In this document: positions 202-48,935 of the stretch, piece after piece | Position numbering within the stretch: the first letter of the stretch is position 1 | Layout: each line of letters starts with the position of its first letter | Source of the DNA: Burkholderiales bacterium 67-32 | GTDB lineage: Bacteria; Pseudomonadota; Gammaproteobacteria; Burkholderiales; Burkholderiaceae_B | NCBI GenBank assembly: GCA_001898625.1 | Contig: MKUP01000020.1 | Span: forward strand, 32,541-86,400 | DNA: 53,860 nt | Direction: 5' to 3' | Translations under genes and position numbers: made by a program | The notes under the pieces: model-generated | The model's input: only the letters and a program-made list of their open reading frames with translations | Database searches by the model: none | What the model was told of the DNA's origin: nothing

Positions 202-1164
202 ATGAAAGCAGCGAAAATGCTGGCGGGCGCCCTGCTCGCCGCCGTCTCGGGCGCGTCCCAGGCACAGGACTATCCGAATCGCCCGATACGCATGGTGGTC
301 CCCTTCGCCGCGGGCGGCGTGGTCGACGTGACCGCCCGCCTGCTGGCACAGAAGCTGACCGAGCGCCTGGGCTGGAACGTCATCGTGGAGAACAAGCCCG
401 GCGGCAACGGTTTCATCGCCGTCACCAACGTGGCGCAGGCGCCCGCCGACGGCTACACGCTGCTGATGGCGCATACCGGGGAATTCTCGGTCAACCCGGC
501 GCTCTTCAAGCACGTGCCCTACGACCTCGAACGCGACTTCAAGCCCATCACCCTGGTCAGCGATACGCCCCTGCTGCTCGTGGCCAACGCCGCCACGCCC
601 TACAAGACCTTCGACGACGTGATCAAGGCCGCCAAGGCCAGGCCCGATTCGCTAGCGTTCTCGTCACCGGGCGCCGGCAGCTACAACCACCTGGGCGGCG
701 AATGGTTCGCACTGGAAGCCGGCGCCAAGCTCATGCACGTTCCCTACAAGGGCGGCGCACCGGCCATGGCGGCTGTGGCTGGCGGCGAAGTGCCGCTGGG
801 CGTGGTGGCCGTGCCGGCCGTGCTGCCGCACGTCAAGACCGGCCGGGTCCACGTGATCGGCCTGCTGACCCGCAAGACCATGGCCGACCATCCCGACTGG
901 AAGACCGCCCAGGGCGCGGGCATACCGCGCGTGGACGCCTCGAACTGGGTCGGCATGTTCGCCCCCAAGGGCACACCCGACGCCATCGTCGAAACCCTGC
1001 ACCGCGAAGTCGCCAAGACCCTGGCCGCCCCCGACGTCATCCAGCGCTTCGCCGACAACGGCGCCACGGTGGGCGGCATGCCTCCCGCCGAATTCAAGCA
1101 ACGCATCGACTTCGATCTGAAGAACGTCCGCGGCGTGATCGAGCGCGCCAGGATCGAACCCTGA
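202..1164 (+). CDS. Bug-family periplasmic solute receptor (TTT system), first gene of operon
   Basis: A 320-residue tripartite-tricarboxylate-type (TctC/Bug) binding protein. Residues 1-21 are a Sec signal peptide ending SQA before QDYPNRPIR. The Bug core follows: a VPFAAGG loop near residue 35, then a VENKPGGNG segment and PADGYTLLM, which shape the ligand pocket in this family. I chose the ATG at 202 because GGGAG lies just upstream and it gives a clean signal peptide; an in-frame ATG at 178 adds eight residues without a good ribosome site. It leads a nine-gene run with UbiD and a molybdenum hydroxylase, so its ligand is probably a small (hetero)aromatic carboxylate; that is inference. No TctA/TctB membrane partners are in the window. 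Confidence 0.93.
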   Translation: MKAAKMLAGALLAAVSGASQAQDYPNRPIRMVVPFAAGGVVDVTARLLAQKLTERLGWNVIVENKPGGNGFIAVTNVAQAPADGYTLLMAHTGEFSVNPALFKHVPYDLERDFKPITLVSDTPLLLVANAATPYKTFDDVIKAAKARPDSLAFSSPGAGSYNHLGGEWFALEAGAKLMHVPYKGGAPAMAAVAGGEVPLGVVAVPAVLPHVKTGRVHVIGLLTRKTMADHPDWKTAQGAGIPRVDASNWVGMFAPKGTPDAIVETLHREVAKTLAAPDVIQRFADNGATVGGMPPAEFKQRIDFDLKNVRGVIERARIEP

Positions 1165-1181
1165 ACACTTACGGAAACGGC

Positions 1182-2642
1182 ATGACGGCGAATACCAAGG
1201 GAAACGGATTGGACTTGCGGCAATGGCTGGCGGACATCGACGCCGGCAGGCAGCTCAAGCAGGTCTCGGGCGCGGACTGGAACCTGGAGCTGGGCGCCAT
1301 CGCCGAGCTCAACGTCAAGAAGGCCGATCCCAAGGCACTGCTTTTCGATGACATTCCCGGCTATCCCGCCGGCCACCGCGTGCTGACATGCACCACCTCG
1401 AACGCGGCGCGGCTGGCCAACATCCTGCGCCTGGGCGAGGTCGGCGGGCACCAGGACCTGGTCGGCAAGCTGCGTGGGCGGCCCAACACCTGGAAGAACC
1501 GCGCCGCCGAATTCGATCCGGTCGAAGTCGCCTCCGGCGCGGTGTTCGAGCACGTGGCCGCGGGCAGCGACGTGGACGTCTCGACCTTTCCCGCTCCGCT
1601 CTGGCACGAGAAAGACGGCGGCCGCTACATCGGCACCGGCTGCATGGTGGTCACCCGGGACCTGGATTCGGACTGGGTCAACGTCGGCACCTATCGCGTC
1701 ATGATCCACGACCGCAACCACGTCGGGCTGGACATGATCCCGGGCAAGCACGGCGCCATCCAGTACGACAAGCACATGGCGGCCGGCAAGCCCTTCCCCG
1801 TGGCCATCGTGTTGGGCTGCGACCCGCTGGGCTACACCATCTCGGGCATCGAAGTGCCTTATGGGATGTGCGAGTACAACTACATCGGCGCCATCCTGGG
1901 CCAGCCGGTGGAGGTCGTACGCGGCCAGGTCACGGGCCTGCCGTTTCCGTCGGCCGCCGAGATCGTGATCGAGGGCTGGGCGCACCCGGGGGACCTCAAG
2001 GAAGAAGGCCCGTTCGGCGAGTTCCACGGCTACTACCCGGGCAAGCAAGGGGTGTCGCCCGTGGTCACCGTCGAACGCGTCTACCACCGTTCGCAGCCCA
2101 TCCTGCTTGGCAGCCCGCCCGCCAAGCCGCCCAACGACTACTCCTACTCCAAGGCCGTGATGCGCTCGGCGTTGCTGATGGACGCGCTGCAGGCGTCGGG
2201 CGTGCCCGACGTGCAGGCGGTGTGGGCGCACGAGATCGGCGGAGCCCGCATGTTCAACGTGGTCTCGATCAAGCAGCGCTATCCGGGCCATGCGCGCCAG
2301 GCCGGCCACCTGCTGCTCAATTGCGGCGTGGGCGCCTACATGTCGCGCTGGGCGGTGGTGGTGGACGAAGACATCGATCCGGCCAATCTGCAGGAAGTGA
2401 TGTGGGCGGTGGCCACGCGCTCGGACCCCGAACGCGACATCGACATCGTGCGCCGCGGCATGGGATCGAAGAACGACCCGCTGTTCGTCACCTTCGGCAC
2501 CGATACGCCCTTCAACTCCAAGGCCGTCATCGACGCGTGCCGGCCCTACGACTACCTGACCCGATTCCCCGAGGTGGCCGAGGCAAGCAGATCCCTGCAA
2601 GCCGCGACCCGCCGCAAATGGGGCCACATCCTCGACGAATGA
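1182..2642 (+). CDS. UbiD-family prenyl-FMN-dependent decarboxylase
   Basis: This 486-residue protein has the usual UbiD length and fold signature. The catalytic triad of the family (Arg-Glu-Glu, R173/E277/E282 in fungal Fdc1) maps to R172 in TYRVMIHDRN and to E275 and E280 in EEGPFGEFHGYY. The family removes a carboxylate from an aromatic, heteroaromatic or acrylic acid (or adds one) using prenylated FMN in the cytoplasm. The gene starts 17 bases after the preceding Bug gene and is followed 22 bases later by another Bug gene, so they are co-transcribed. No UbiX flavin prenyltransferase lies in the window, so the cofactor must be made elsewhere. With a downstream Mo-hydroxylase and a nearby CoA ligase, an HmfF-like furandicarboxylate decarboxylase is a good guess, but substrate cannot be read from sequence alone. 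Confidence 0.93.
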   Translation: MTANTKGNGLDLRQWLADIDAGRQLKQVSGADWNLELGAIAELNVKKADPKALLFDDIPGYPAGHRVLTCTTSNAARLANILRLGEVGGHQDLVGKLRGRPNTWKNRAAEFDPVEVASGAVFEHVAAGSDVDVSTFPAPLWHEKDGGRYIGTGCMVVTRDLDSDWVNVGTYRVMIHDRNHVGLDMIPGKHGAIQYDKHMAAGKPFPVAIVLGCDPLGYTISGIEVPYGMCEYNYIGAILGQPVEVVRGQVTGLPFPSAAEIVIEGWAHPGDLKEEGPFGEFHGYYPGKQGVSPVVTVERVYHRSQPILLGSPPAKPPNDYSYSKAVMRSALLMDALQASGVPDVQAVWAHEIGGARMFNVVSIKQRYPGHARQAGHLLLNCGVGAYMSRWAVVVDEDIDPANLQEVMWAVATRSDPERDIDIVRRGMGSKNDPLFVTFGTDTPFNSKAVIDACRPYDYLTRFPEVAEASRSLQAATRRKWGHILDE

Positions 2643-2664
2643 ACAAGAAGCAGGAGGAGCAGAC

Positions 2665-3627
2665 ATGAACACCTATCTCATCGCCGCGGCCGTCGCCGCC
2701 GCGTTTGCCGCCGGCGGCGCTCAAGCCCAGCAATGGCCCGCCCGCCCCATCACCATGATCGTGCCGTTCTCCCCGGGCGGCGTGACCGACGCCGTCGCGC
2801 GTCCGGTGGCCGAAGCCATGGCACGCAAGCTGGGCCAGCCCGTGATCGTGGAGAACAAGGTCGGCTCCGGCGGAGCGGTGGGCATCGCCCATGTGGCGCG
2901 CGCCAAGCCGGACGGCTACACCATCCTGATGTCGCTGCCGGCGATCTCCAGCATGCCCACGGCCGACAAGCTGATCGGCCGCCAGCCGATGTACCAGGTC
3001 GATCAATTCGCCCCCATCGCCCGCATCACGGCCGACCCCGCCGTGCTTGCCGTCCGCAGCGACAGCGAGTGGAAAACGGCGCAAGAGTTCATCGCCTACG
3101 CCCGCAAAGAGCAGATCACCTATGGTTCGTCGGGGGTCTACGGCACGCTGCACATGTACATGGCCTCTCTGGCCAACACGGCCGGCATGAAGACCCTGCA
3201 CGTGCCTTACGGCGGCGCCGGCCCGGCCATGATGGCGCTGCTGGGCAAGCAGATCCAGGCCCTGGCCGTCTCGCCCGGCTCGGTCAAGCAGCACGTGGAC
3301 AGCGGCGCGGTGCGCCTGCTGGCCCACTGGGGCAGCGAACCCGTCGAGGCTTTTCCCAAGTTGCCCAGTCTGAAATCGCTCGGCTACGACGTCGAGTTCT
3401 ATCAATGGAGCGGCCTGTTCGCCCCGGCCGGCACGCCGCCCTCGGTGCTCGGAAAGCTGGGCGACGCCGTCAAGTTCGCGGTGGACGACGCCCGTGTCCA
3501 GAAAGTCATCGAGGAAGGCGCCGGCCTGCCCATCAAGTATTTGAACACCGCGGACTTCACCAGATTCTGGAACCAGGACGCCGCAGGACAGATCCAGGCC
3601 GTGCAACGCATCGGCAAGGTCGACTAA
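2665..3627 (+). CDS. Bug-family periplasmic solute receptor, second copy in the same operon
   Basis: A 320-residue TctC/Bug receptor with a signal peptide ending AQA at residues 19-21, then QWPARPITMIVPFSPGG, VENKVGSGG and KPDGYTILM, the same landmarks as the first gene of the operon. A strong AGGAGGAG ribosome site sits nine bases before the ATG. The two receptors differ through most of their length, so this is not a recent tandem copy. Having two different receptors around one decarboxylase suggests two related substrates (for example a dicarboxylate and its decarboxylated product) or one periplasmic sensor and one transport receptor. That interpretation is inference. Confidence 0.93.
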   Translation: MNTYLIAAAVAAAFAAGGAQAQQWPARPITMIVPFSPGGVTDAVARPVAEAMARKLGQPVIVENKVGSGGAVGIAHVARAKPDGYTILMSLPAISSMPTADKLIGRQPMYQVDQFAPIARITADPAVLAVRSDSEWKTAQEFIAYARKEQITYGSSGVYGTLHMYMASLANTAGMKTLHVPYGGAGPAMMALLGKQIQALAVSPGSVKQHVDSGAVRLLAHWGSEPVEAFPKLPSLKSLGYDVEFYQWSGLFAPAGTPPSVLGKLGDAVKFAVDDARVQKVIEEGAGLPIKYLNTADFTRFWNQDAAGQIQAVQRIGKVD

Positions 3628-3653
3628 CCCGCGCGCCAAACGAGACACCCGAC

Positions 3654-4454
3654 ATGCAGCTTCAACACACCCTCTGCGCCGACGGCGTGCGCATCGCCTA
3701 CGCCTTGCACGGCAACGCCGATGCGAAGCACCGCTTCGTCCTGATCCACTCGCTGGCCATGGACCACAGCTTCTGGGACCCGGTCGTGGCCGAACTGGGC
3801 GCGGACGCCGCGGTGGCGGCGCTGGACGCGCGCGGCCACGGCCAGTCGGACAAGCCCGCCGGCCCCTATCGCCTCGACACTTTCGCCGACGACGTGGCCC
3901 GCGTGCTCGATGCGATCGGCTGGGAGCGCGCGGTGGTGGGCGGCGCGTCGATGGGCGGCTGCGTCGCCCTGGCGTTCGGCATCCGCCATCCGGCCCGCAC
4001 CGCCGGCCTCGGCCTGTTCGACACCACGGCGTGGTATGGCGCGACCGCGCCGGCCGACTGGGAGGGCCGCGGCCAAAAGGCCGTGCAGGAAGGCCTGGCG
4101 AGCCTGATCGCCTTCCAGGAAACGCGCTGGTTCACCGACGACTTTCGCCGCGACCACCCCGCAATCGTGGAACACAGCAAACGGATTTTCCTCGCCAACG
4201 ACGTGCCCGCCTATCTGGAAACCTGCCGCATGCTGGGCAACACGGACCTGCGCCCGGGCATGTCCGGCATCGTCGCGCCGACCCGGATCCTGGTGGGCGA
4301 AGAGGACTACGCGACGCCCGTGGCCATGGCCCAGGCGCTCGCCGACGCCATCGCCGGCTCGACACTGCGGATCCTGCCCCGGGCCCGGCACCTGTCGCCG
4401 CTCGAATACCCGCGCGAGGTGGCCGAGAACCTGCTGGCGCTGGCCCGGGCCTAG
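3654..4454 (+). CDS. Alpha/beta hydrolase, enol-lactonase-like (PcaD type)
   Basis: A 266-residue cytoplasmic alpha/beta-hydrolase. The nucleophile elbow GASMGG places the catalytic serine at residue 99; the acid is D218 in VGEEDYATP and the base H246 in RARHLSP. The LDARGHGQSDKP strand-turn near residues 57-67 is typical of the 3-oxoadipate enol-lactonase/MhpC branch. It begins 26 bases after the Bug gene and precedes the FAD subunit of the molybdenum hydroxylase by 16 bases. In this setting a lactone or thioester produced after ring hydroxylation is a plausible substrate; a plain esterase cannot be excluded. Confidence 0.88.
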   Translation: MQLQHTLCADGVRIAYALHGNADAKHRFVLIHSLAMDHSFWDPVVAELGADAAVAALDARGHGQSDKPAGPYRLDTFADDVARVLDAIGWERAVVGGASMGGCVALAFGIRHPARTAGLGLFDTTAWYGATAPADWEGRGQKAVQEGLASLIAFQETRWFTDDFRRDHPAIVEHSKRIFLANDVPAYLETCRMLGNTDLRPGMSGIVAPTRILVGEEDYATPVAMAQALADAIAGSTLRILPRARHLSPLEYPREVAENLLALARA

Positions 4455-4470
4455 ACGCGAGGAACACGAC

Positions 4471-5349
4471 ATGTCCCCTTTTGAATTGCTGCAACCGGCC
4501 ACTCTGGACGAAGCGCTGAAGATCATGGCCGCGCCGGATTTTGCCGGCCGCCCGGTCAGCGGCGCGACCGCGATCTCGCTGATGCGGCGCGCGGGCATCC
4601 TGAACGTGGACAGCCTGCTGAGCCTGGAGGGCCTGCGCGAGAGCCTGCGCGACATCCGCGTGGCCGACGACGGCCAGGCCCGCGTCGACGGCCTGGCCAC
4701 CCTGGGCGAAATGGAACGTCACCCCGGCCTGCGCGCCTCGCATCCGCTGCTGTCTCAGGTATTCGCCACCCTGGCCAACCCCCGGGTGCGCAACGTCGCG
4801 ATGATAGGCGGCTACCTCTCGCATGGCGATCCACACATGGATTTGCCGCCAGTACTCAGTACACTGAACGCTAATGTAGTCGCCCAAAGCCTGCGCGGCG
4901 TGCGCGAGATCGCCGTCGACCGGCTCTACCAAGGCTATTACGAAACCGCGCTGGCGGCCGACGAACTGATCACCGGCCTGGCCATACCGCGCCAGCCCGC
5001 CTGCGCCTACTACAAAAAGATCACCACCCGCGCCCGCCACGACTGGCCCACGCTGGGCATCGCCGCCGCGTTCGATCTCGACGGCGGCCGCATCGTCCGG
5101 GCGCGGCTGTTCATCGGTGCCGCCACCGACCGCCCCCTGCGCCTGCAACAGGCCGAGTCCGTGCTCGACGGTCAGGCCTGGTCGGCCGAACTGGGCCGTC
5201 GCGCCGCGCAGGCGGCGGTGGACGAAGCCACGCTGGTGCCCGATAGCCACGGCAGCACGGCATACAAGCAGGCCCTGCTGCTCGCCCATCTACCCGAGGT
5301 CTTCGAGCAAGCCCTGCGAGCTCCCCAACCGGCAGCGAGACAAGCATGA
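4471..5349 (+). CDS. Molybdenum hydroxylase FAD-binding (medium) subunit, CoxM-like
   Basis: A 292-residue medium subunit of a xanthine-dehydrogenase-family hydroxylase. The N-terminal FAD_binding_5 region carries the flavin loop as VSGATAISLMRR near residue 28 and the second flavin motif as MIGGYLSHGDPHMDLPP near residues 110-126, matching the family TIGGNLAHADPASDLPP pattern. The C-terminal CO-dehydrogenase flavoprotein domain follows. Its stop overlaps the next start by four bases (ATGA), implying translational coupling with the large subunit. It passes electrons from the iron-sulfur subunit to an acceptor. Confidence 0.93.
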   Translation: MSPFELLQPATLDEALKIMAAPDFAGRPVSGATAISLMRRAGILNVDSLLSLEGLRESLRDIRVADDGQARVDGLATLGEMERHPGLRASHPLLSQVFATLANPRVRNVAMIGGYLSHGDPHMDLPPVLSTLNANVVAQSLRGVREIAVDRLYQGYYETALAADELITGLAIPRQPACAYYKKITTRARHDWPTLGIAAAFDLDGGRIVRARLFIGAATDRPLRLQQAESVLDGQAWSAELGRRAAQAAVDEATLVPDSHGSTAYKQALLLAHLPEVFEQALRAPQPAARQA

Positions 5350-7631
5350 CGACAGAACGCCCTCCCCTGAACCGGCTCGGCAAGGGCCTGCGCCGCCTCG
5401 AGGCGATCGACAAGGTCACCGGCCGCGTCGACTACACCCACCACGTGACGCTGCCCGGCATGCTGCATGCGAAGATCGTCCGCAGCCACGTGGCCCATGG
5501 CCGCCTCGTCGGCATCGATACCGCCCAGGCGAAAGCGGTGCCAGGCGTTCATGGCGTCTTCACCGGCGCCGACATCCTCAAGATCATCCCGGAACCCTAC
5601 TACGGCCCCGCGTTCCACGACCAGCCCATCCTCGCCATCGACAAGGTGCGCTACGTGGGCGAACCGGTGGCCGTGGTAGTGGCCGAATCGCCCCACGTGG
5701 CCGAGGATGCCGCCGGCCTGGTCCAGGCCGAGATCGACGAGCTGCCGGCCGTGTTCGACGAGATCGAGGCCATGCACGCCGACATCTACGTGCATGACTC
5801 GCTGCGGCCCGCCGGCACCTTCGCCGACCTCAAGCACCTGAACGGCATCCGCGACACCAACGTGGCGCTGACCTTCGGCGTCAAGAAAGGCAACGTCGAG
5901 GAAGCGTTCAAGACCGCGCACCGCGTGTTCAGGAACACGTTCAAGACCCAGCAGGTCATGCACGTGCCGCTGGAACCCATGGTCTCGGTGGCCGACGTGC
6001 GCAACGCGCACGCCACCATCCATACGGCCAGCCAGACGCCTTCGTTCGCCCGGACCGAGATCGCGCGCCTGCTGGGCTGGCGCGAGAACCAGGTCACGGT
6101 CAAGACCGCCTTCCTGGGCGGCGGTTTCGGCTGCAAGCTGTACGTCAAGCTGGAACCTCTGGCCGTGGCCCTGAGCATGCTGTGCCGGCGCCCGGTGCGG
6201 GTTGCGCTGACCATGGCCGAACAGTTCTACACCATCACCCGACACCCGACCACGTTCAACATCGAATCGGCGGTGGACGAGAACGGCCGCATCCTGGCGC
6301 GCCGCTGCGAGGTGATCTGGAACGGCGGCGCCTACGCCGACATCGGCCCGCGCGTCACGCAAAAATCGGGCTTCACCGCCCCCGGCCCCTACGATATCGA
6401 ACACGTGGACGTCACCTCGGTCGCGGTCTATACCAACCGTCCGCCGGCCGGCGCCTTCCGTGGCTTCGGCATCCCGCAACTGGTATGGGCCTACGAAAGC
6501 CAGGCCGACATCATCGCCCGCGAGATGGGCCTGGACCCGGTCGAGTTCCGCCTGCGCAACGTGCTGACGGACGGCAAGCGCCACGCCACCGGCACCGTCA
6601 TGAAGGATGCCGCCATTCCGCTTGTGCTCAACCGCGTGGCCGAGCGCTTCGGCTGGAGCCGGCCCTTCGAGCACGGCGACGGGCGCTACCGGCGCGGCCG
6701 CGGCATAGGCGTGGGCATCAAGGCCTGCGTCTCGCCCACCACCTCGGTGGCGGCCGTCTCGGTCGCCGCCGACGGCAGTTGCAGCGTGCAGTGCAATACC
6801 GTGGACATGGGCCAGGGCTCGGACACGCTGATGGCCATGATCGTGTCCGAGGTCCTGGGCGTGCCCGCCGAATCGGTCTCGGTGGTCAACCCGGACACCG
6901 ATGCCTCCCCCTACGACATGGCCACGCTGGGTTCGCGCTCGACCTTCCATATGGGCCACGCGGTGCGGCTGGCCGCCGAGGACGCGCAGGCCAAGCTCCT
7001 CGCCATGGCCCGGGAAGTCGGCGTGGACCAGGTCGATCCCGCCGACCTCGGCACCTTGTTCGTCCGCAAGTTCGGCATGCAGGCCGGCACGGTCATCGGC
7101 ACCGGGATCTACAAGCCCACCTATCAATCGCCCGACAAGAGCACGGGCCAGTCGGAAGACATCACGCCCAACTGGATGATAGGCGGCACGGCGATCGAGG
7201 TCGAAGTCGACACCGAAACCGGCATGTACACCATCCTGCGGATGGAGAACGTGGTCGATTGCGGCACCGCACTCAATCCGCTGGTGGTGCAGACCCAGAT
7301 CAGCGGCGCGGCCATCATGCAGCTCGGCACGGTCACGCTGGAAGAAATGGAGTTCGACGAACAAGGCCAACTGCGCAACGCCGGCCTGTCGGAATACAAG
7401 ATCCCCGGCATCCAGGACATCCCCCGCTCCATCGGCCGCGAGACGGTGGACGCCTACCAGTCCAACGGCCCTTTCGGCGGCAAGGGCGTGGGCGAGAGCG
7501 CGACCTTCGGCGTCGCCTCGGCCCTGGCCGCCGCCATCGAAGACGCCGTCGGCGTCCGCATCACGCAACTGCCCATCCGTCCCGAAAAGATCTGGGAAGG
7601 AATGCGCGCCCAACAGGAACAGCACGCATGA
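5346..7631 (+). CDS. Molybdenum hydroxylase large (molybdopterin cytosine dinucleotide) subunit, CoxL-like
   Basis: A 761-residue catalytic subunit of the xanthine dehydrogenase family. Visible landmarks are the N-terminal a/b-hammerhead domain, GGGFGCK near residue 258, the Mo-cofactor loop GAFRGFGIPQ near residue 370, the MGQGSDT segment and GGKGVGES, whose E717 is the general base that activates the Mo-bound oxygen. GAFRGFG followed by PQ resembles nicotinate-type and 4-hydroxybenzoyl-CoA-reductase-like enzymes more than the CO dehydrogenase loop (which has a selenyl-modified Cys). The expected reaction is hydroxylation of a heteroaromatic ring or its CoA thioester with water as oxygen source. 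It overlaps both neighbours by a few bases. Confidence 0.94.
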   Translation: MTTERPPLNRLGKGLRRLEAIDKVTGRVDYTHHVTLPGMLHAKIVRSHVAHGRLVGIDTAQAKAVPGVHGVFTGADILKIIPEPYYGPAFHDQPILAIDKVRYVGEPVAVVVAESPHVAEDAAGLVQAEIDELPAVFDEIEAMHADIYVHDSLRPAGTFADLKHLNGIRDTNVALTFGVKKGNVEEAFKTAHRVFRNTFKTQQVMHVPLEPMVSVADVRNAHATIHTASQTPSFARTEIARLLGWRENQVTVKTAFLGGGFGCKLYVKLEPLAVALSMLCRRPVRVALTMAEQFYTITRHPTTFNIESAVDENGRILARRCEVIWNGGAYADIGPRVTQKSGFTAPGPYDIEHVDVTSVAVYTNRPPAGAFRGFGIPQLVWAYESQADIIAREMGLDPVEFRLRNVLTDGKRHATGTVMKDAAIPLVLNRVAERFGWSRPFEHGDGRYRRGRGIGVGIKACVSPTTSVAAVSVAADGSCSVQCNTVDMGQGSDTLMAMIVSEVLGVPAESVSVVNPDTDASPYDMATLGSRSTFHMGHAVRLAAEDAQAKLLAMAREVGVDQVDPADLGTLFVRKFGMQAGTVIGTGIYKPTYQSPDKSTGQSEDITPNWMIGGTAIEVEVDTETGMYTILRMENVVDCGTALNPLVVQTQISGAAIMQLGTVTLEEMEFDEQGQLRNAGLSEYKIPGIQDIPRSIGRETVDAYQSNGPFGGKGVGESATFGVASALAAAIEDAVGVRITQLPIRPEKIWEGMRAQQEQHA

Positions 7632-8104
7632 ACATCGACATCGAGTTCGAACTGAACGGACGCGCCGAGCGCCGCCATGTGGACGTGCGCGACAACGCCA
7701 TCGACATGCTGGGGCGGTGCGGCCTGAAAGCCGCCCGCGAAAGCTGCGGTCAGGGTCTGTGCGGCTGTTGCACCATCTACGTGAACGGCGAACCGGCGTC
7801 GGGATGCCTCTATCCCGCCTGGAAACTGCAGGGCAAGCAGATCGAGACCCTGGAAGCCCTCGACGCCGCGGACGGCGGACTCGACCCCGTCCAGCAGGCC
7901 TTCATCGATTGCGGCGCTTTCCAATGCGGTTTCTGCACACCCGGATTCGTCATGATGACGCGCAGGCTGCTCGACGCCCACCCCGATCCGACGGATGCGC
8001 AGATCGAGCATTACCTGTCCGGCAACCTGTGCCGTTGCGGCGCGTATCCCGAAATCATCGCCGCGGTGCGGCTGGCCGCCCAGCGCGCCGGCGCCCGCGG
8101 TTAA
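7628..8104 (+). CDS. Molybdenum hydroxylase 2Fe-2S (small) subunit, CoxS-like
   Basis: A 158-residue two-cluster ferredoxin subunit. The plant-type N-terminal cluster is held by C40, C45, C48 and C60 (ESCGQGLCGCCTIYVNGE region). The C-terminal four-helix cluster is held by C100 and C103 in CGFCTPG and C135 and C137 in LCRCG. All eight ligands are present. It starts four bases inside the end of the large-subunit gene (ATGA). It relays electrons from the Mo site to the FAD subunit. The subunit order medium-large-small is the same as in cox operons. Confidence 0.95.
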   Translation: MNIDIEFELNGRAERRHVDVRDNAIDMLGRCGLKAARESCGQGLCGCCTIYVNGEPASGCLYPAWKLQGKQIETLEALDAADGGLDPVQQAFIDCGAFQCGFCTPGFVMMTRRLLDAHPDPTDAQIEHYLSGNLCRCGAYPEIIAAVRLAAQRAGARG

Positions 8105-8119
8105 CAAGGAGGACACAGC

Positions 8120-8737
8120 ATGGAAATGGTCGCCGAGCGACTCATCAAGGCCCCGCGCAATGAAGTCTGGCGCTGCCTGAACGACCCCGACGTCCTGAAG
8201 GCCTGCATTCCCGGCTGCGAATCCATCGATGTCGTGGGCCCCGACGGCTACAAGGTCGCCATGGTGGCGGTCGTGGGTTTCATCAAGGCCAGGTTCGTCG
8301 GCGAGCTCACGCTGCAGAACAAGATCGCGGACACGTCATATGACCTGAGCTTCAACGGCACCGGTGGCGCGGCGGGCTTCGGCAAGGGCGCGGCCAGCGT
8401 CGCGCTCCGCGACGCGCCGGACGGTACCACCCTCGTCTACCAGGTCAAGGCGCAGGTCGGCGGCAAGCTGGCGCAGGTCGGGGCGCGCGTGATCGACAGC
8501 GTTGCCAGGAAGATGGCCGACGAATTCTTCCAAAGGCTGGACACGGTCGTCACCGGAGCGGATGCGCAGGCCGCGGCCCGCCCGGCCGAGGCGCCGGCGG
8601 ACGCCGGACCGGGCGCCCCGGATGATGCCAGCGGCTCCGCATCGAGCGCGTCGTCGTCGCGTGCCTGGATCTACGCCGCGGCGGCCGCCACGGTCGCGGT
8701 GGTCGTGGCGTTTGCCTTCGGTGGAGGTGGCGCATGA
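8120..8737 (+). CDS. CoxG-like SRPBCC protein with C-terminal membrane anchor
   Basis: A 205-residue protein. Residues 1-145 match the CoxG (carbon monoxide dehydrogenase subunit G) SRPBCC fold: EMVAERLIKAPRNEVWRCLNDPDVLKACIPGCE at the start is diagnostic. A low-complexity Ala/Pro/Gly/Ser linker follows, then a hydrophobic tail near residues 180-200 that should anchor it to the inner membrane. In carboxydotrophs CoxG recruits the hydroxylase to the membrane and aids electron transfer to quinone. Finding it here suggests this Mo-hydroxylase also feeds the respiratory chain. An AAGGAGG ribosome site sits before the ATG. Confidence 0.9.
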   Translation: MEMVAERLIKAPRNEVWRCLNDPDVLKACIPGCESIDVVGPDGYKVAMVAVVGFIKARFVGELTLQNKIADTSYDLSFNGTGGAAGFGKGAASVALRDAPDGTTLVYQVKAQVGGKLAQVGARVIDSVARKMADEFFQRLDTVVTGADAQAAARPAEAPADAGPGAPDDASGSASSASSSRAWIYAAAAATVAVVVAFAFGGGGA

Positions 8738-9111
8738 CCCCCTGGCCCACACACCGCCTGCCCGCGCCGGCGGGCCACTACGTGCCCGCCATGCAGACAG
8801 GCCAGCTCCTGTACCTGTCGGGCGTCCTGCCCGACCTGGCGCGCGGCGAGGACTTCGCGACCCAGTTCGGCACCTGCTTCGACCGCATCGAAACCATCCT
8901 GGCCGAAGGCGGCCTGGGACTGGCCAGCATCGTGCAGTGCACGGTTTATCTGTCGGATATCGGACGCTGGGACGAGTTCAACCAGCTTTATCGTCACCGC
9001 CTGGGCCAGCACCGCTGTGCACGCACGGTGGTGCCGGTCGGGCCGTTGCACTTCGGTGCGCAGATCGAGGTGCAAGTGGTGGCGGAAGCGACTCGGTCAG
9101 CCTCCGCCTGA
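8734..9111 (+). CDS. RidA/YjgF-family protein, last gene of the Mo-hydroxylase operon
   Basis: A 125-residue RidA-fold protein that overlaps the CoxG-like gene by four bases (ATGA). It has the family glycine-rich SGVLP segment near residue 29 and keeps the catalytic-type arginine (R97 in CARTVVPVG) and the acidic IEVQVV strand (E112). The family hydrolyses reactive enamines/imines or acts as tautomerase/deaminase. In this operon it may handle an unstable enol or keto tautomer formed after ring hydroxylation; that is inference. Its last 134 bases are antisense to the 3' end of the acyl-CoA ligase gene. Confidence 0.88.
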   Translation: MTPWPTHRLPAPAGHYVPAMQTGQLLYLSGVLPDLARGEDFATQFGTCFDRIETILAEGGLGLASIVQCTVYLSDIGRWDEFNQLYRHRLGQHRCARTVVPVGPLHFGAQIEVQVVAEATRSASA

Positions 9112-10498
9112 GTTCGCGGCGCGAAATCTTGCCATTGGCCCCCAGCGGAATGCTGTCCAGCTTCCACCAGTAGACCGGCTGCCACGCGGCCGGCAACTGC
9201 GTCGCCAGGCGTATGGCCAGATCGTCGGCCTGCACGCCGGGCGCGCCCGTGAAGGCACAGCCCACCACCGCGCCATACGTGGCGTCGTCCACGCCGAAGG
9301 CTACCGCTTGCCGCACGCCGGGCTCCCGTTCGACATGGCGTTCGACATCGCCCGGATGGATGTTCACTCCGCCACGCAGGATCATGTCGTCGGCGCGGCC
9401 CGACAGCGCCAACCGGCCCGTCGGATCGAACACGCCCAGATCCTGCGTGTCGACCGCATCGCCGCCTGGGTACAGGAAATCGTCGCCCACCGAACGCGTC
9501 GCCAGGGCCGCATGAGGGCTTCGCACCAGGATGCGGCCGGGTTGCCCCGCCGTGCCCTCGGCGCCCTGCCCAACCGTTACGTGCACCCCGTCGATCGGAA
9601 ATCCGACCCGGCCGACCCGCCGGGCCGCCTCGTCCGAACCGCAGATCCAGCCCAGTTCGGAACTGCCATACAGGTTGATCAGCGGCACGCGCCAGACTGC
9701 CTCCGCGCGCTGCCACAGATCCGCCGCCAGCTCCGACGAACTGCACGAATACCTCGCCAGGGCCGCGGGCAGCGCCGGCGCGACACCCAGCATGATGCGC
9801 ACCATGCTCGGCACCATGGGCATGAAGCGAATCTCGCGCTCGTCCAGCCAGCCGGCCAGCTTCGACGCCGAGAACCCCGGCGCCACATGCAATTGCGTAC
9901 CCGCCGACAAGAACGGCATCAGGCTCAGTATCTGCGCCGAATACCAGTTCAGCCCGCGCACCTCCAGACAGGGTTCGCCTTCGTCCAGCCCCATCAGCCG
10001 CGCGGACACCTCGCCGTTGTGCCGCAGTGCCGCGGCGGACTGGTAGACCAGCTTGGGCATGCCCGTCGTGCCCGAGGTGCAATTGACCAGCACCGTCCCC
10101 GCCGGCATCGCCGCCGCACCGGACGCCTGCGCCAGCGGCAGGCAGTCCGCGCCCGCGGATCCAAGGGCCAGCATGCCCGATGGCCGCGCGGTGGCGAGCA
10201 ACGCGCGCACCGTATCGGCCGGCAGGTAGTCCATGTCGATATTGAGTACCGCCGCGCCCGCCATCCAGGCGCCCAGCCACAGCACCACCTTCTCGACGCC
10301 ATTGGCGGTGGGCAACAGAAAGAGCGGCGGCGCGCCATTCTGCGCAGGCAGCGACCGCGCCACCGCGCGCGCCTGCTCGTACAGGCCGCGGCCGTCCAGC
10401 CGTGCGCCACCGGTATCCGCCAGCGCCAGCCGATCCGGATGGCGGCTCGCCCGCCGCGCCAGACAGGACTCGACGAATTGCGCGAATTCGCTAGCCAT
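8978..10498 (-). CDS. AMP-forming acyl/aryl-CoA ligase
   Basis: A 506-residue ANL-superfamily adenylating enzyme. The P-loop motif A3 is TSGTTGMPK (141-149), the LYGSSELGW motif A5 is near 277-284, SGRADDMILRGGVNIHP (A8) spans 366-382, and the catalytic lysine K457 lies in GANGKISRRE. It would activate an organic acid to its CoA thioester with ATP. The last 44 residues (after K457 and RREL) are Pro/Ala/Arg-rich, lack family similarity and are encoded opposite the end of the RidA-like gene, so they look like a readthrough tail. Its start overlaps the LysR gene stop by eight bases, so the two are co-transcribed. By analogy with HmfD it could supply furoyl-CoA or a related thioester to the Mo-hydroxylase. 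Confidence 0.9.
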   Translation of the reverse strand: MASEFAQFVESCLARRASRHPDRLALADTGGARLDGRGLYEQARAVARSLPAQNGAPPLFLLPTANGVEKVVLWLGAWMAGAAVLNIDMDYLPADTVRALLATARPSGMLALGSAGADCLPLAQASGAAAMPAGTVLVNCTSGTTGMPKLVYQSAAALRHNGEVSARLMGLDEGEPCLEVRGLNWYSAQILSLMPFLSAGTQLHVAPGFSASKLAGWLDEREIRFMPMVPSMVRIMLGVAPALPAALARYSCSSSELAADLWQRAEAVWRVPLINLYGSSELGWICGSDEAARRVGRVGFPIDGVHVTVGQGAEGTAGQPGRILVRSPHAALATRSVGDDFLYPGGDAVDTQDLGVFDPTGRLALSGRADDMILRGGVNIHPGDVERHVEREPGVRQAVAFGVDDATYGAVVGCAFTGAPGVQADDLAIRLATQLPAAWQPVYWWKLDSIPLGANGKISRRELRRRLTESLPPPLAPRSAHRSATARPAPPCVHSGAGPGGDDKAG

Positions 10499-11426
10499 GA
10501 CCGATCAGCGCTTCGGGCTCCAGGCGAAAATGCTCTGCCGCGCGCTCCAGCAACCACGATCGGAAACACGCTACCTTCTGGTGTTCGTAGCGGCTCTCGG
10601 GCGTCGCGAGATAGTAGGCCGACTTGGACCTGAGCCGCGGGCCGAACGGCGAGACCAGCGCGCCCGAACGCAATGCGCGGTTGGCCAGCGGCGTGCGCGC
10701 GATCACCACGCCCAGGCCCTCCACCGCTCCCGCCAACGAGGTCAACTGCATGTGCATGCCCAACTCCATCTGCGGCTGCATCTCGCCCAGTCCGGCGGCG
10801 GCCAGCCATTCCGGCCAGTCATCCTCGTAGAGCGACGTGAAGTACGTCCGCAACCACGTCGTTCCGGCCAGGATCGCCGATACGTCGCCGTCCGGCTTAC
10901 CCTCTAGCAGACGCGGCGACATCGCGGGAAAGAAATACTCGTCGCACAGCCAATCGCACTTCACGCCGTCCCACTTGCCCGAACCATACCGGATCGCGAC
11001 ATCGTAGGCGTTGATCTGGAACGCATCGAAGGCCGAGGTGGTGGAAAGCTGGAGCCGCAATTGCGGAAAAGCCGCGCGGAACTCGGGCAGCAACGGCAGC
11101 AGGCACTCCGTCGCGAACGTGGGCAAGCAACTGATCGAAAGCGTGTGTTCGTTGCCTCCCTGGCTGACCCGATCGGTCGCGGTGGAAAGCTCCACCAGCA
11201 GGCCGCTCACCGCTTCCAGATACTCCGAACCCGGCGTGGTCAGCGAGATCCGGCCCTTGGCGCGCACGAACAGCGCCGTGCCCAGGCGGTCCTCCAGTGA
11301 ACGGATCTGATGGCTGATTGCCGCCTGGGTCAGGTGCAGCTCATTGGCCGCCTTGGTAAAACTCAGGTGCCGGGCGGTCGCCTCGAAAGCAAGCAATGCA
11401 TTCAGCGGCGGAATAAAAGGGGGCAT
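10491..11426 (-). CDS. LysR-family transcriptional regulator, GcvA-like
   Basis: A 311-residue LysR-type regulator. The N-terminal winged helix-turn-helix covers residues 1-65 (ATARHLSFTKAANELHLTQ, then AAISHQIRSLEDRLG), followed by a periplasmic-binding-like effector domain. The start PLNALLAFEATARHLSF is typical of the GcvA/TrpI branch. It is followed by the acyl-CoA ligase with an eight-base overlap. It is the only regulator next to the left-hand catabolic genes, so it may control the 202-9111 operon and its own ligase, with the pathway acid or CoA ester as effector (inference). Confidence 0.92.
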   Translation of the reverse strand: MPPFIPPLNALLAFEATARHLSFTKAANELHLTQAAISHQIRSLEDRLGTALFVRAKGRISLTTPGSEYLEAVSGLLVELSTATDRVSQGGNEHTLSISCLPTFATECLLPLLPEFRAAFPQLRLQLSTTSAFDAFQINAYDVAIRYGSGKWDGVKCDWLCDEYFFPAMSPRLLEGKPDGDVSAILAGTTWLRTYFTSLYEDDWPEWLAAAGLGEMQPQMELGMHMQLTSLAGAVEGLGVVIARTPLANRALRSGALVSPFGPRLRSKSAYYLATPESRYEHQKVACFRSWLLERAAEHFRLEPEALIGHG

Positions 11427-13779: not shown

Positions 13780-13864
13780 TGGTGCCGTCGGCGAGACTCG
13801 AACTCGCACAGCTTTCGCCACTACCCCCTCAAGATAGCGTGTCTACCAATTTCACCACGACGGC
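13780..13864 (-). tRNA. tRNA-Leu (anticodon GAG), CCA encoded
   Basis: On the minus strand the acceptor arms GCCGTCG and CGACGGC pair fully, with discriminator A and an encoded CCA (13780-13782). The anticodon stem CTATC/GGTAG holds loop TTGAGGG, giving GAG, which reads CUC/CUU leucine codons. The variable arm is long, as in class II tRNAs, and GTTCGAGTC is the T loop. Total length with CCA is 85. It follows secG by 53 bases. Confidence 0.95.
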
Positions 13865-13868
13865 TTGC

Positions 13869-13910
13869 GTGAGCCCGCTAGTATATAACATTTGCGGGCT
13901 CACTAGCGGG
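13869..13910. repeat. Two mutually exclusive inverted repeats between secG and tRNA-Leu
   Basis: GTGAGCCCGC (13869-13878) pairs perfectly with GCGGGCTCAC (13894-13903). The overlapping CCCGCTAGT (13874-13882) pairs perfectly with ACTAGCGGG (13902-13910). The two hairpins share the CCCGC segment and cannot form together. The spacer of the first contains TATATAA, which on the minus strand gives TATACT as a possible -10 element 15 bases before the tRNA. Confidence 0.75.
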
Positions 13911-13917
13911 ACCCTCT

Positions 13918-14334
13918 TCAGTTTTTCTGCGCGGGAGCCTCGGGCTGAGCCGGAGCGGCCGGAGGCGTGGCGGGCACGGACGGGACCGACGCATCGGGCG
14001 CGGCCGGGGCCGGGGCGGGCGCGCTGCCGGGCACGGCGGGCACGGACAGGTCGCTGGGATGGTTCTCCATGACGCCACCCTGCGAGGCGGCGGGGGCCGG
14101 ACGGCCCAGGTAGGCCAGCGCGGCAGTGGAGACGAAGAAGACGACCGCCGCCCACTTGGTGGTGCGCGACAGGAAGTTGGCCGCGCCAGCGGCGCCGAAC
14201 AGGCTGCCGGCGGAGCCGCCGCCGAAGGCGGAGCCCATGTCGGCGCCCTTGCCCTGTTGCAGGAGGACCAGGACGATAATCGTCAGGGCGGAAACAACCT
14301 GCACGATCAGCAGGACGGTAAGCATTACGGACAT
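13918..14334 (-). CDS. secG: Protein-export membrane subunit SecG
   Basis: A 138-residue SecG. Two transmembrane helices (about residues 3-25 and 61-77) flank the conserved cytoplasmic loop LQQGKGADMGSAFGGGSAG, the family signature. It binds SecYE and aids preprotein translocation. The C-terminal 60 residues are a Pro/Ala-rich tail, longer than in E. coli SecG but common in Burkholderiales. Its ATG follows the tpiA stop directly with no gap, and tRNA-Leu lies downstream. Confidence 0.96.
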   Translation of the reverse strand: MSVMLTVLLIVQVVSALTIIVLVLLQQGKGADMGSAFGGGSAGSLFGAAGAANFLSRTTKWAAVVFFVSTAALAYLGRPAPAASQGGVMENHPSDLSVPAVPGSAPAPAPAAPDASVPSVPATPPAAPAQPEAPAQKN

Positions 14335-15114
14335 TCAAGCACTCCGGGTTGTTGCGCCCGCCTCGGCGATGCGCAGGAAGTCTTCGGCCACCAGCGAGGC
14401 GCCGCCTATCAGGCCGCCGTCGATGTCGGGCATGGCGAACAGTTCGGCGGCGTTGGCCGCCTTGACGCTGCCGCCGTACAGCACGCGCACGCCGGCGCAG
14501 TCGACGCGCTGGAGCGCGGCCCGGATGGCGGCGTGCACTTCCTGGGCCTGTTCGGGGCTGGCGGTCTTGCCGGTGCCGATCGCCCAGACGGGTTCGTAGG
14601 CGATGACCATGGCGGCCACGGCTTCCCGGCCCAGGGCCAGCACGGGTTTGAGCTGTTCGTCGATGACGGCCAGGGTGCGGCCGGCTTCGCGCTCGGCCAG
14701 GGTCTCGCCCACACAGACGACGGGAGTCAGGCCGGCGGCCAGCGCCGCCTTGGCCTTATCGGCCACGAGCTGGCTGGTTTCGCCATGCAGGCTGCGCCGC
14801 TCGGAATGGCCCGCCAATACATAGCGGCAGCCGAAATCGGCCAGCATCGCGCCGGATACCTCGCCAGTGTAGGCGCCCTGCGCATGGACGCTGATGTCCT
14901 GAGCGCCCCAGGCGACGTCGGAATCGGTCAGCGCGGACTCGGCCTGGGCCAGGTACGGAAACGGCACGCAGACGCCGACGTCGCAAGCAGCGGCGCCGGA
15001 GGACTGGTTCCAGGCGCTGCGTATGGCCGAAAGCAGCTGGCCGTTGGTGGCCAGCGCGCCGTGCATCTTCCAGTTGCCCAGCACCAGGCGGCGGATGTTC
15101 TGTTTAGTTGCCAT
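14335..15114 (-). CDS. tpiA: Triosephosphate isomerase
   Basis: A 259-residue TIM barrel that interconverts dihydroxyacetone phosphate and glyceraldehyde 3-phosphate. Catalytic residues are N14 and K16 (LGNWKMHG), H103 (AGHSERR) and E174 ([11 protein letters not shown]). The phosphate loop is [10 protein letters not shown] with the GGASL loop near the end. The start at 15114 gives the normal N-terminus. It abuts secG, as in many beta-proteobacteria. The 5' leader holds a hairpin with a T run only 11 bases before the ATG. Confidence 0.97.
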
Positions 15115-16457: not shown

Positions 16458-16874
16458 ATGAGCACACAAGCCAAAGTCGTCGAAGGCAAGGCCACTCCCC
16501 GCGGCAAGTACCCCCACATCAAGCGCGCCGGCGACTTCCTGTTCGTCTCGGGCACCAGCTCGCGCCGCTCCGACAATACGCTGGCCGGCGTGGAAGTGGA
16601 CGCCATGGGCACGACCAAGTTCGACATCCGTGCCCAGACCCGCGCGGTGCTCGAGAACATCCGCGACATCCTGGGTACCGCCGGCGCCTCGCTGTCCGAC
16701 GTCGTCGAGATCGGCACCTTCCTGGTCGACATGAGCGACTTCGGTGGCTACAACGAGGTCTACGGGGAATTCTTCGACTACGACGGCCCGGCCCGCACCA
16801 CGGTGGCCGTGCACCAGTTGCCCCACCCGCACCTGCGCATCGAGATCAAGGCGGTCGCCTACAAGCCCCTCTGA
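16458..16874 (+). CDS. RidA-family deaminase, probable 2-aminomuconate deaminase
   Basis: A 138-residue RidA-fold protein. It has the [11 protein letters not shown] segment near 27-36, the arginine R113 in [14 protein letters not shown], and E129 in the IEIKAVAY strand. The next gene, 34 bases downstream, is an unmistakable ACMS decarboxylase; in the 2-nitrobenzoate/3-hydroxyanthranilate pathway a RidA-fold protein (NbaF/AmnD type) removes ammonia from 2-aminomuconate. That pairing is the basis for the substrate call. It starts at the ATG at 16458 after AGAGAG. The intervening aldehyde dehydrogenase is absent from the window. Confidence 0.85.
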
Positions 16875-16908
16875 TCCCGCCACGACAACACCAGACATCA
16901 AGCCCATC

Positions 16909-17916
16909 ATGAAAATCGACATGCACGCCCACCACTTCCCGCGCATCACGCGGGAAGAAGCCGCCGCCCTGAGCGTCGAGCGCGCGCCCTGGCTGCAGGT
17001 GGCACCAGACGGCAAGACCGGCGACATCATGCGCGCCGACAAGGCCTTCCGCCCCGTCTACGACGCGCTGTGGGATCCGCAAGCGCGCCTGGCCGAGATG
17101 GACGCCCAAGGCGTGGACATCCAGATCACCTGCGCCACGCCCATCATGTTCGGCTACGAGTTCGCGCCCGAGAAGGTCCTGCCCTGGGCCCAGCGCATGA
17201 ACGACCTGGCGCTGGAATTCTGTGCCGCCGCGCCCAAGCGCCTGGTGGCGCTGGCTCAGGTGCCGCTGCAGGACATCGACGCCGCCTGCCGCGAAGCCTC
17301 GCGCGCCAAGGCCACGGGCCACCACGGCGTGCAGATCGGCAACCACCTGGGCGACCGCGACCTCGACGACGAGGGCCTGGTCACCTTCCTGCAGCACTGC
17401 GCAAACGAAGGCATCCCGCTGCTGGTCCACCCGTGGGACATGATGGGCGGCAACCGCATGAAGCAATGGATGCTGCCCTGGCTGGTCGCCATGCCCGCCG
17501 AAACGCAGCTCGGCATCCTGTCGCTGATCCTGTCGGGCGCCTTCGAGCGCATCCCCGAGTCGCTGAAGATCTGCTTCGCCCACGGCGGCGGTTCCTTCGC
17601 CTTCATGCTGGGCCGCGTGGACAACGCCTGGAAACATCGCGACATCATCCGCAAGGACTGCCCGCGCCTGCCCTCGGAATACGTCAAGCGTTTCTACGTC
17701 GACTCCGCCGTGTTCGATCCGGGCGCGCTGCGCCTGCTGGCCGACGTGATGGGCACCGACCGCATCATGCTGGGCTCGGACTATCCCTTCCCGCTGGGCG
17801 AACAGTCCATCGGCAAGCTGGTGGCCGAACAGCCCGGCTTCAGCGACGCCGACAAGCAAGCCATCTACGCCGGCAACGCCGTCGAATTCTTCGGCCTGCA
17901 AGCCCTGGTACGCTGA
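16909..17916 (+). CDS. nbaD: 2-amino-3-carboxymuconate-6-semialdehyde decarboxylase (ACMSD)
   Basis: A 335-residue amidohydrolase-2 family enzyme that matches the Pseudomonas ACMSD nearly throughout. The zinc ligands and catalytic residues map with a constant offset of three: H6 and H8 (DMHAHHFP), H174 ([10 protein letters not shown]), H225 (CFAHGGGS) and D291 ([11 protein letters not shown]). The substrate-binding arginines are R48 (FRPVY) and R236 (LGRVDNAW). It decarboxylates ACMS, from 3-hydroxyanthranilate cleavage, to 2-aminomuconate semialdehyde. This belongs to tryptophan/kynurenine or 2-nitrobenzoate breakdown. The 3-hydroxyanthranilate dioxygenase is not in the window. Confidence 0.95.
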
Positions 17917-17945
17917 CCTCTTTCCACCCCCACAAGGAAATACCC

Positions 17946-29010: not shown

Positions 29011-29691
29011 ATGAGCACCCCCGCCAATTTCCAGGGCCAACGTCCCGTCATCGACCCCGCAGACGCCGTCATGCTGCTGATCGATCACCAGAGCGGCCTG
29101 TTCCAGACCGTGGGCGACATGCCCATGCCCGAGCTGCGCGCCCGCGCCGCGGCGCTGGCCAAGATGGCCACCCTGAGCAAGCTGCCCGTCATCACCACCG
29201 CCTCGGTACCCCAGGGCCCCAACGGCCCGCTCATTCCGGAAATCCACGCCAACGCACCGCATGCCCAATACGTGGCGCGCAAGGGCGAAATCAACGCCTG
29301 GGACAATCCGGACTTCGTGGCCGCCGTCAAGGCCACCGGACGCAAGACCCTCATCATCGCCGGCACCATCACCAGCGTGTGCATGGCCTTCCCCTCCATC
29401 AGCGCGGTCGCCGACGGCTACAAGGTATTCGCGGTGGTCGACGCCTCCGGCACCTACAGCAAGATGGCGCAGGAGATCACGCTGGCGCGCGTGGTGCAGG
29501 CGGGCGTGGTGCCCATGGACACGGCGGCGGTGGCCTCCGAACTGCAGAAGACCTGGCACCGCGACGACGCCCAGCAGTGGGCCGAGGTCTATACCAAGAT
29601 CTTCCCCGCCTACCAATTGCTGATCGAAAGCTACACGAAGGCTCAGGAGGTGGTGAAGAACAACGAGACGCTGGACTCGCAGCGCGCCTGA
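29011..29691 (+). CDS. Isochorismatase-family hydrolase, YcaC-like
   Basis: A 226-residue cysteine hydrolase. The catalytic triad is D25 ([11 protein letters not shown]), K91 (ARKGEINAW) and C124 ([10 protein letters not shown]), all in the spacing seen in YcaC. A strong AAGGAGAG ribosome site precedes the ATG at 29011. YcaC-type enzymes act on unidentified amides or similar compounds. Its 3' end converges with the meta-cleavage operon, 21 bases away. Confidence 0.9.
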
Positions 29692-29712
29692 CCGCCGCCC
29701 CTGGCGGCCGCC

Positions 29713-48748: not shown

Positions 48749-48779
48749 GGGGCATTCTCCAGGATCGTTCCGTCTCCGC

Positions 48780-48808: not shown

Positions 48809-48935
48809 ACCTTGGAACGGATTCTGGCGTGCCGCTCGCGGTTTGTTGACCGCCGCACCATCGAGAATGTCCGCTTTGTTTCAAACCCGGGGCCACGAAA
48901 GATCGTTCCCACCCCGGAAGCCCGCCAGTACCGCC

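Follow-up and report, generated by a model that had tools for sequence, protein, structure and literature searches.

A putative UbiD subfamily usually accompanied by one type of molybdenum hydroxylase, and a candidate operon for heteroaromatic acid catabolism in Burkholderiales bacterium 67-32

We analysed a gene cluster of Burkholderiales bacterium 67-32 that encodes a UbiD decarboxylase together with a three-subunit molybdenum (Mo)-hydroxylase. The window, meaning the whole analysed stretch of 53,860 nucleotides (G000:C20:32541-86400), belongs to a genome of 6.66 Mb in 34 contigs (G000). Positions 202-9111 of its plus strand read bug–ubiD–bug–hydrolase–coxM–coxL–coxS–coxG–ridA, and a lysR–AMP-ligase pair occupies positions 8978-11426 of the opposite strand; all of these frames are open.

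Several described systems resemble parts of this cluster. The Hmf furan pathway likewise has a UbiD decarboxylase, a three-subunit Mo-hydroxylase, a CoxG-like domain, an AMP-forming ligase and a nearby LysR gene, but the window has a separate CoxG plus an extra hydrolase, RidA and Bug receptors. The PhdA-PhdB-PhdC system of Mycolicibacterium fortuitum (PMC13040415) includes a UbiD of the same branch, whose structure (7PDA) is the closest solved one. However, its pocket motif differs, and the UbiD of the window is linked to a Mo-hydroxylase instead. Family scans of the 11 genes of the block, in which PhdC itself was not a query, found no UbiX or flavin-reductase family. HudA (PA0254), a pyrrole-2-carboxylate decarboxylase, is a UbiD for a five-membered N-heteroaromatic acid and the second-best solved relative. 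PMC7976604 places the specificity site at His297 in HmfF and Asn318 in HudA; in our alignment, Asn318 maps to Tyr320 of the window UbiD. Finally, the xanthine oxidase (XO) family, with 4-hydroxybenzoyl-CoA reductase (HBCR), nicotinate dehydrogenase and quinoline 2-oxidoreductase, has the same three-subunit architecture, catalytic Glu and 2Fe-2S subunit, with no solved member near enough to name a substrate for the window enzyme.

Judged by its sequence, the window UbiD belongs to a tight subfamily, with at least 65% identity across Pseudomonadota, Acidobacteriota and Bacillota. Identity is 67-75% in 25 sampled orthologues and at lowest 65% in 80 loci (the best 80 of 90 relatives from a scan of genome contigs with UbiD peptide patterns, comprising close relatives only), and outside the subfamily it is at most 46%. 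The same gap appears in a search of Alcaligenaceae, where identity drops from 73% to 47%: eight of the 11 Pigmentiphaga genomes have an orthologue, against none of 257 others. The closest named records of the UbiD scan are Pigmentiphaga, and we assign the window's genome to this genus. In a tree of 43 rows, the window UbiD and 25 orthologues group at 100/99, with the HmfF rows separate at 100/100. The triad R172, E275 and E280 is invariant (19/19 alignment rows). The window UbiD has the pocket motif PPNDYSYSKAVMRSA from residue 316; Tyr320 is kept in 25 of 26 rows of the subfamily, and Lys324 and Arg328 in all 26.

This UbiD is usually accompanied by one type of Mo-hydroxylase. A CoxL of the window type (at least 44% identity and at least 50% of the length) occurs in 56 of the 80 loci, and in 34 of the 38 whose two flanks each reach 9 kb or more. 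In 40 loci, coxS and ubiD are no more than 200 bp apart, and CoxG is found in 28, a count whose thresholds will miss divergent copies. The pairing of UbiD and Mo-hydroxylase is kept in Bacillota and Acidobacteriota. In a draw of 399 Burkholderiales genomes that includes the window's own, UbiD (E ≤ 1e-200) was found in 13 and CoxL (E ≤ 1e-250) in 16, and 13 genomes have both (expected 0.52; Fisher 6.5e-22, a p value that is too small because the genomes are related and the counts non-independent). In 12 of these 13 genomes, the two genes are within 3 kb on a single contig; in the other (G364), a contig break inside coxS splits the pair. The association of UbiD with CoxL is beyond chance.

In many betaproteobacterial metagenome-assembled genomes (MAGs), a coxMLS-ubiD unit stands at one chromosomal position beside typA and a DEAD-box helicase gene (L046, L053, L070-L072, L074, L081, L082, L086, L089, L103 and others), which suggests vertical inheritance in that group. 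TypA (22 loci) and the helicase (19 loci) were rejected as members of the pathway, since they look like housekeeping markers of the position. Eight MAG contigs titled Bordetella parapertussis (L047, L049, L058, L060, L067, L083, L084, L092) also carry a UbiD of the window type; this label, known from the titles only, looks doubtful.

The original prediction likened the logic of the cluster to the HmfF/HmfD/HmfABC route for furan-2,5-dicarboxylate and 2-furoate. If it were this route, the UbiD would be a furan-2,5-dicarboxylate decarboxylase, the ligase a furoyl-CoA synthetase and CoxMLS a furoyl-CoA dehydrogenase. For the roles of the Hmf proteins, we relied on the table in PMC12064950. Our yardstick was a cluster on a plasmid of Paraburkholderia aromaticivorans BN5 (L113), called an hmf cluster from its HmfF match and gene order and not from a tested strain. 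It encodes, in order, UbiD, UbiX, a long Mo subunit, FAD and 2Fe-2S subunits, an AMP ligase, an enoyl-CoA hydratase and a GMC oxidase, and its UbiD scores 445 bits against the solved HmfF 6H6V. The classes of enzyme are identical in the two clusters. A CoxG-like stretch lies within the large subunit of the hmf cluster (the window CoxG is 33% identical to HmfA over 132 aa), and the Arg that aligns with Arg328 of the window UbiD occurs in HmfF, as it does in PpcB. By contrast, identities to the yardstick are low: 31.5% for UbiD, 28-30% for CoxL (HmfA), 26% for CoxM, 40% for CoxS and 26% for the ligase (365 aa). HmfE (enoyl-CoA hydratase-like) and HmfG (UbiX) of the yardstick have no match from the 11 cluster proteins at E ≤ 1e-3, and a GMC-oxidase domain, as expected of HmfH, is absent from the ten proteins scanned with Pfam (HmfH itself was not compared). 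A joint clade of the window orthologues with HmfF is disfavoured (approximately unbiased test, p 0.0151, with a warning of long branches from the tool), and Tyr320 replaces the His that gives HmfF its furan specificity. The UbiD is thus placed outside HmfF by phylogeny, part of the outcome that the original prediction had named as refuting it. The large subunit is set apart by low identity, with identities and bit scores standing in for a tree with characterised enzymes. We therefore rejected the identification with HmfF and HmfABC, and consider a furan route of this kind very improbable. On present evidence, the gene set appears to resemble the furan-acid pathway in logic but to differ from the Hmf pathway, and equating the two appears wrong.

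The solved structures point to a different branch. A structure search with an AlphaFold model of the UbiD (mean pLDDT, the predicted local distance difference test, 70; used solely for naming nearest structures) identified 7PDA as PhdA, the phenazine-1-carboxylic acid decarboxylase of Mycobacterium fortuitum. The scores are 327 bits for 7PDA, 181-183 for HudA, 167 for VdcC, 144-145 for HmfF and 57 for phthaloyl-CoA decarboxylase. A 36-row group in a further tree, containing the window UbiD, its paralogues and PhdA (entered as the printed 7PDA stretch), has support of 96/93 and leaves HmfF outside. PhdA, which is 39% identical to the window UbiD, and HudA are the closest characterised UbiDs, and both act on N-heteroaromatic acids.

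The curated family models bring in another kind of substrate, a homocyclic aromatic or phenolic acid of the vanillate, phthalate or phenylphosphate type. Seven NCBIfam models match the UbiD, and the broad subfamily model TIGR00148 alone exceeds its cut-off (267.7 versus 244.85). Phenylphosphate carboxylase beta scores highest (274 bits; cut-off 469), and VdcC reaches 255 (cut-off 650). Similarly, plasmid 2 of Aromatoleum aromaticum EbN1 (L116) carries three UbiD genes (two nearly identical) and two UbiX genes beside two CoA transferases; the middle UbiD, between two UbiX/UbiD pairs, is 44% identical to that of the window. However, PhdA is nearer to the window UbiD than VdcC. Moreover, no ring-cleaving oxygenase is among the recurrent families annotated in the loci, a result that leaves out families F10, F12, F16, F18, F24, F28 and F29 (5-14 loci each) and open reading frames (ORFs) found in a single locus. 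To our knowledge, a Mo-hydroxylase is no usual step for such acids. We find homocyclic acid catabolism unlikely.

A second, unrelated type of UbiD occurs in L073 (715-2361), L076, L108 (10111-11889) and L120 (12411-14216; this is genome G442). It is 28-29% identical to the window UbiD and 48-53% among its copies, with HmfF as the nearest solved structure (145 bits). The first three loci have both types; in G442 the second type adjoins coxMLS, and the first is absent. The UbiD and Mo-hydroxylase might act in successive decarboxylations of a single polycarboxylated ring, the second UbiD type taking part in some lineages. But this type, as clustered, is in just 3 of the 80 loci and G442, and is not in the operon of the window, and we consider this explanation to be quite unlikely.

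In the reading that we favour, and to which we give about an even chance, the cluster is an operon dedicated to the aerobic catabolism of a carboxylated heteroaromatic acid, one more likely to contain nitrogen than to be a furan. The general idea of a heteroaromatic-acid set with its own receptors, as originally predicted, is plausible even though its Hmf specifics do not hold. It is strengthened because the linkage of UbiD with Mo-hydroxylase spans phyla and because the nearest UbiDs, PhdA and HudA, take N-heteroaromatic acids. The lack of a ring-cleaving oxygenase among the annotated recurrent families also fits this reading. The Bug receptors would capture the acid, and the UbiD, charged with prenylated flavin mononucleotide (prFMN) by a UbiX whose gene lies in another part of the genome, would act in the decarboxylating direction to remove the ring carboxylate. 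The Mo-hydroxylase, with CoxG as an accessory, may then attach a water-derived hydroxyl group to the ring, and the product would tautomerise to a lactam or lactone. The latter might be opened by the PcaD-like hydrolase, and RidA might hydrolyse the leftover enamine or imine. The LysR-linked acyl-CoA ligase would be an addition in Pigmentiphaga and Paraburkholderia, optional judging by its distribution.

A more specific proposal seems doubtful to us. The cluster might represent an unrecognised, horizontally spread, oxygenase-free module, in which the UbiD of the PhdA branch, with its near-invariant Lys324/Arg328 pocket, and its cognate Mo-hydroxylase turn an N-heteroaromatic carboxylate (pyrrole-, imidazole- or pyridine-type) into a lactam that interchangeable lactam/amide hydrolases and RidA open and deaminate. 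A ring-cleaving dioxygenase would then be unneeded, because the hydrolases and RidA would do this work.

The following points weigh against a heteroaromatic-acid operon. First, 39% identity to PhdA fixes no substrate, and the UbiD pocket motif is unlike both PhdA and HmfF. Second, 24 of the 80 loci are without a CoxL of the window type. About ten of them are cut by the end of a contig or stretch (L034, L037, L040, L047, L051, L052, L057, L059, L061, L069). The other 14 have no CoxL in the stretch (L078, L080, L085, L087, L088, L090, L093, L096, L098, L099, L100, L108, L110, L111); several have a short flank on one side, but they are not plainly contig-end effects, so the UbiD can occur without the Mo-hydroxylase. 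Conversely, 3 of the 16 genomes with CoxL lack a UbiD of the window type: G442 has the other UbiD adjoining coxMLS, G443 has coxMLS with a Bug gene, and in G552, coxG-M-L-S stands with RidA and an aldehyde dehydrogenase. A second copy of CoxL in G320 has no such UbiD on the 20 kb taken. The partnership is therefore strong, but not absolute. Third, RidA (17 loci), the ligase (13) and a counterpart of the alpha/beta hydrolase (11) are each, at the thresholds applied, in a minority of the 80 loci, so that only UbiD and Mo-hydroxylase form the core. RidA proteins are frequently general detoxifiers, and the enzymes of ring cleavage could be encoded elsewhere.

Fourth, the best single-chain profile of the large Mo subunit is that of HBCR, which acts on a homocyclic CoA ester. 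The subunit scores 447 bits with the HBCR alpha profile, and 308 + 217 bits over two chains with nicotinate dehydrogenase. All 13 NCBIfam models that it matches are under their cut-offs, and its best solved matches are divided among HBCR, quinoline, CO and nicotinate enzymes. The features of the XO family are present, namely three subunits, a 2Fe-2S binding domain and Glu717 in the GVGE motif of the CoxL-like subunit, which is invariant (8/8 rows; alignment A1) and which we take to be the catalytic residue. The HBCR profile leaves room for a route via CoA esters, in which the ligase would make an aroyl-CoA, the Mo-enzyme and UbiD would act on the ester, and a thioesterase would free the product. 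Clusters of Burkholderia and Paraburkholderia indeed hold a ligase and a 4HBT-type thioesterase, and ligase, lysR and ridA occur together in 13 of the 80 loci. However, the ligase is in just these 13 loci versus 56 for CoxL, so CoA activation by a ligase of the window type cannot belong to the core, and the match of the UbiD to phthaloyl-CoA decarboxylase is slight. We regard this route as rather improbable.

The genes named in the original prediction, both in the operon and in the neighbouring lysR–ligase pair, are all present and open, and have family matches (Table 1). Pfam scans covered 10 of the 11 genes and matched all ten; LysR was scanned with NCBIfam alone.

Table 1 Genes of the cluster, with positions in the window and family matches
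Gene	Position	Strand	Match
bug1, TctC/Bug periplasmic solute receptor	202-1164	+	PF03401 215 bits
ubiD, prFMN-dependent decarboxylase, PhdA branch, 486 aa	1182-2642	+	PF01977 212 bits, PF20696, PF20695
bug2, second TctC/Bug receptor	2665-3627	+	PF03401 210 bits
alpha/beta hydrolase, 3-oxoadipate enol-lactonase (PcaD)-like	3654-4454	+	TIGR02427 202.8 bits (cut-off 255.85); PDB 2xua
coxM-like FAD subunit of Mo-hydroxylase	4471-5349	+	PF00941, PF03450
coxL-like molybdopterin subunit	5346-7631	+	PF02738/PF20256/PF01315
coxS-like 2Fe-2S subunit	7628-8104	+	PF01799 103.8 bits; PF13085 25.4 bits (cut-off 27)
coxG-like SRPBCC protein, hydrophobic C-terminal tail	8120-8737	+	PF06240 115 bits
RidA/Rid-family protein	8734-9111	+	PF01042 75.7 bits; TIGR00004 70.4 bits (cut-off 106)
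AMP-forming acyl-CoA ligase	8978-10498	-	PF00501 121 bits; PF13193 20.9 bits (cut-off 24.5)
LysR-type regulator	10491-11426	-	NCBIfam GcvA-like 284.2 bits (cut-off 288)

The plus-strand genes are spaced by -4 to 26 nt, which is compatible with a single transcript of 202-9111. The ligase and ridA overlap tail-to-tail by 134 nt, and lysR and the ligase by 8 nt. Scans for promoters and terminators and for tandem repeats gave nothing useful. The hydrolase, which is below the curated cut-off for PcaD, has a GASMG nucleophile elbow at residue 97, the RidA-type protein keeps the Arg of the Rid family (ARTVVPV) in an alignment, and the ligase carries TSGTTGMPK and NGK motifs. The motif residues of these three proteins, the UbiD and the Mo subunit presumably have the catalytic roles familiar from their families.

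UbiX had been noted as missing from the cluster. While none is present in the block 202-11426, the genome encodes a single UbiX on another contig (G000:C23:352634-353128), 53.8% identical to the UbiX of the L037 cluster, and the same cell thus has a source of prFMN. The ligase had been labelled an aryl-CoA ligase. However, among solved structures it is closest to oxalate-CoA ligases (86 bits), as is its positional counterpart in Paraburkholderia (141 bits), which is 31% identical to it. We dropped the aryl label on these grounds.

Every part of the cluster is present in 9 of the 80 loci, five of Pigmentiphaga type (L032, L033, L035, L036, L064) and four grouped with Paraburkholderia (L038, titled Burkholderia sp., L041, L042, L104). 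A conserved full set, for which a genome search had been proposed, is therefore real, but it is characteristic of these two groups. A bug1 orthologue (88-96% identity) adjoins ubiD in five loci of Pigmentiphaga type (L032-L036), and many loci from betaproteobacteria have a relative of bug1 (45-56%) immediately downstream of ubiD. A lysR counterpart is present in 14 of the 80 loci; those in Paraburkholderia and Burkholderia loci and in P. litoralis are 48-51% identical. Loci of Burkholderia and Paraburkholderia have major facilitator superfamily (MFS) transporters in addition to the thioesterase noted above.

The loci with RidA include three from Bacillota, and in L122 RidA adjoins coxG-M-L-S on an examined stretch of 15 kb that has no UbiD. 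The Bacillota clusters contain IclR, an arylformamidase-like cyclase, an aromatic-acid-type MFS transporter, XdhC, MocA and RraA-type proteins, and some have a UbiX nearby; UbiX is present in 7 of the 80 loci. In L091 an amidase gene follows that of RidA, and in L088 (5804-9779) ubiD comes after the genes for hydantoinase/oxoprolinase A and B, on a stretch without a Mo-hydroxylase. These hydrolases, which vary with lineage (PcaD-like, cyclase, amidase, hydantoinase/oxoprolinase), may be equivalents of one another. Their recurrence, together with that of RidA, hints at lactam or amide intermediates.

Downstream of the operon are tRNA-Leu, secG and tpiA, and upstream of it is the nuo operon; the names of secG, tpiA and the nuo genes come from the appearance of their sequences, not from a family search. 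In nine Pigmentiphaga genomes, namely those with tpiA and nuoD on a single contig, the site from tpiA-secG-tRNA-Leu to nuo (13780-15114 of the window and contig C20 upstream of it) is of variable length (8-79 kb). G000, G192, G197 and G191 carry the UbiD operon within this interval. G190, G196 and G189 have no UbiD orthologue, and in G193 and G194 (UbiD 73-74% identical) the operon is about 0.9 Mb from the interval. Twelve N directly before the window start (L003:12530-12541) mark a scaffold join, which the upstream link crosses in the window's own genome; L032 and L033, whose records match G192 and G197, have the same gene families upstream. A foreign composition of the operon was rejected, given that its 4-mer frequencies correlate with those of the remaining window at 0.949, compared with 0.925-0.971 for 20 stretches of the same size there. 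The suggestion of an island hence stands as far as the variable interval is concerned, but not for composition.

Other parts of the window contain further genes of possible catabolic function. A separate group at 16458-18935 has a second RidA, an amidohydrolase-like ORF and a Bug-like receptor and is, by the appearance of its sequences, of aminomuconate/ACMSD type; the amidohydrolase-like ORF, of which the first residues alone were read, has no NCBIfam match. A YcaC-like cysteine hydrolase, a BphD-like hydrolase, a 3-carboxyethylcatechol 2,3-dioxygenase-like protein (362 bits; cut-off 291) and an FAD monooxygenase at 29011-33337 are a probable meta-cleavage set. Close together at 46072-49559 are a fumarylacetoacetase-like protein (371.5 bits; cut-off 375.3), a protein with weak matches to Rieske oxygenases (best 55.5 bits) and a 3-oxoacid CoA-transferase subunit B (305.5 bits, above its cut-off).

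We found no system of matching make-up in the result listings of literature searches on pathways with UbiD, Mo-hydroxylase and Bug or RidA proteins, nor in those on the degradation of quinolinate, pyrrole-2-carboxylate or phenazine-1-carboxylate. What appears to be new is the tight UbiD subfamily spanning phyla, usually accompanied by one type of Mo-hydroxylase. The conservation of the UbiD in three phyla and the same oxidising partner in 13 of 13 genomes point to a single natural substrate that is well defined and common. Thanks to the conserved pocket motif, a single purified enzyme would allow a direct test of what this substrate is. Once it is identified, UbiD enzymes would have one more specificity, of use in CO2-fixation chemistry, and a soil route for a heteroaromatic acid would probably come to light.

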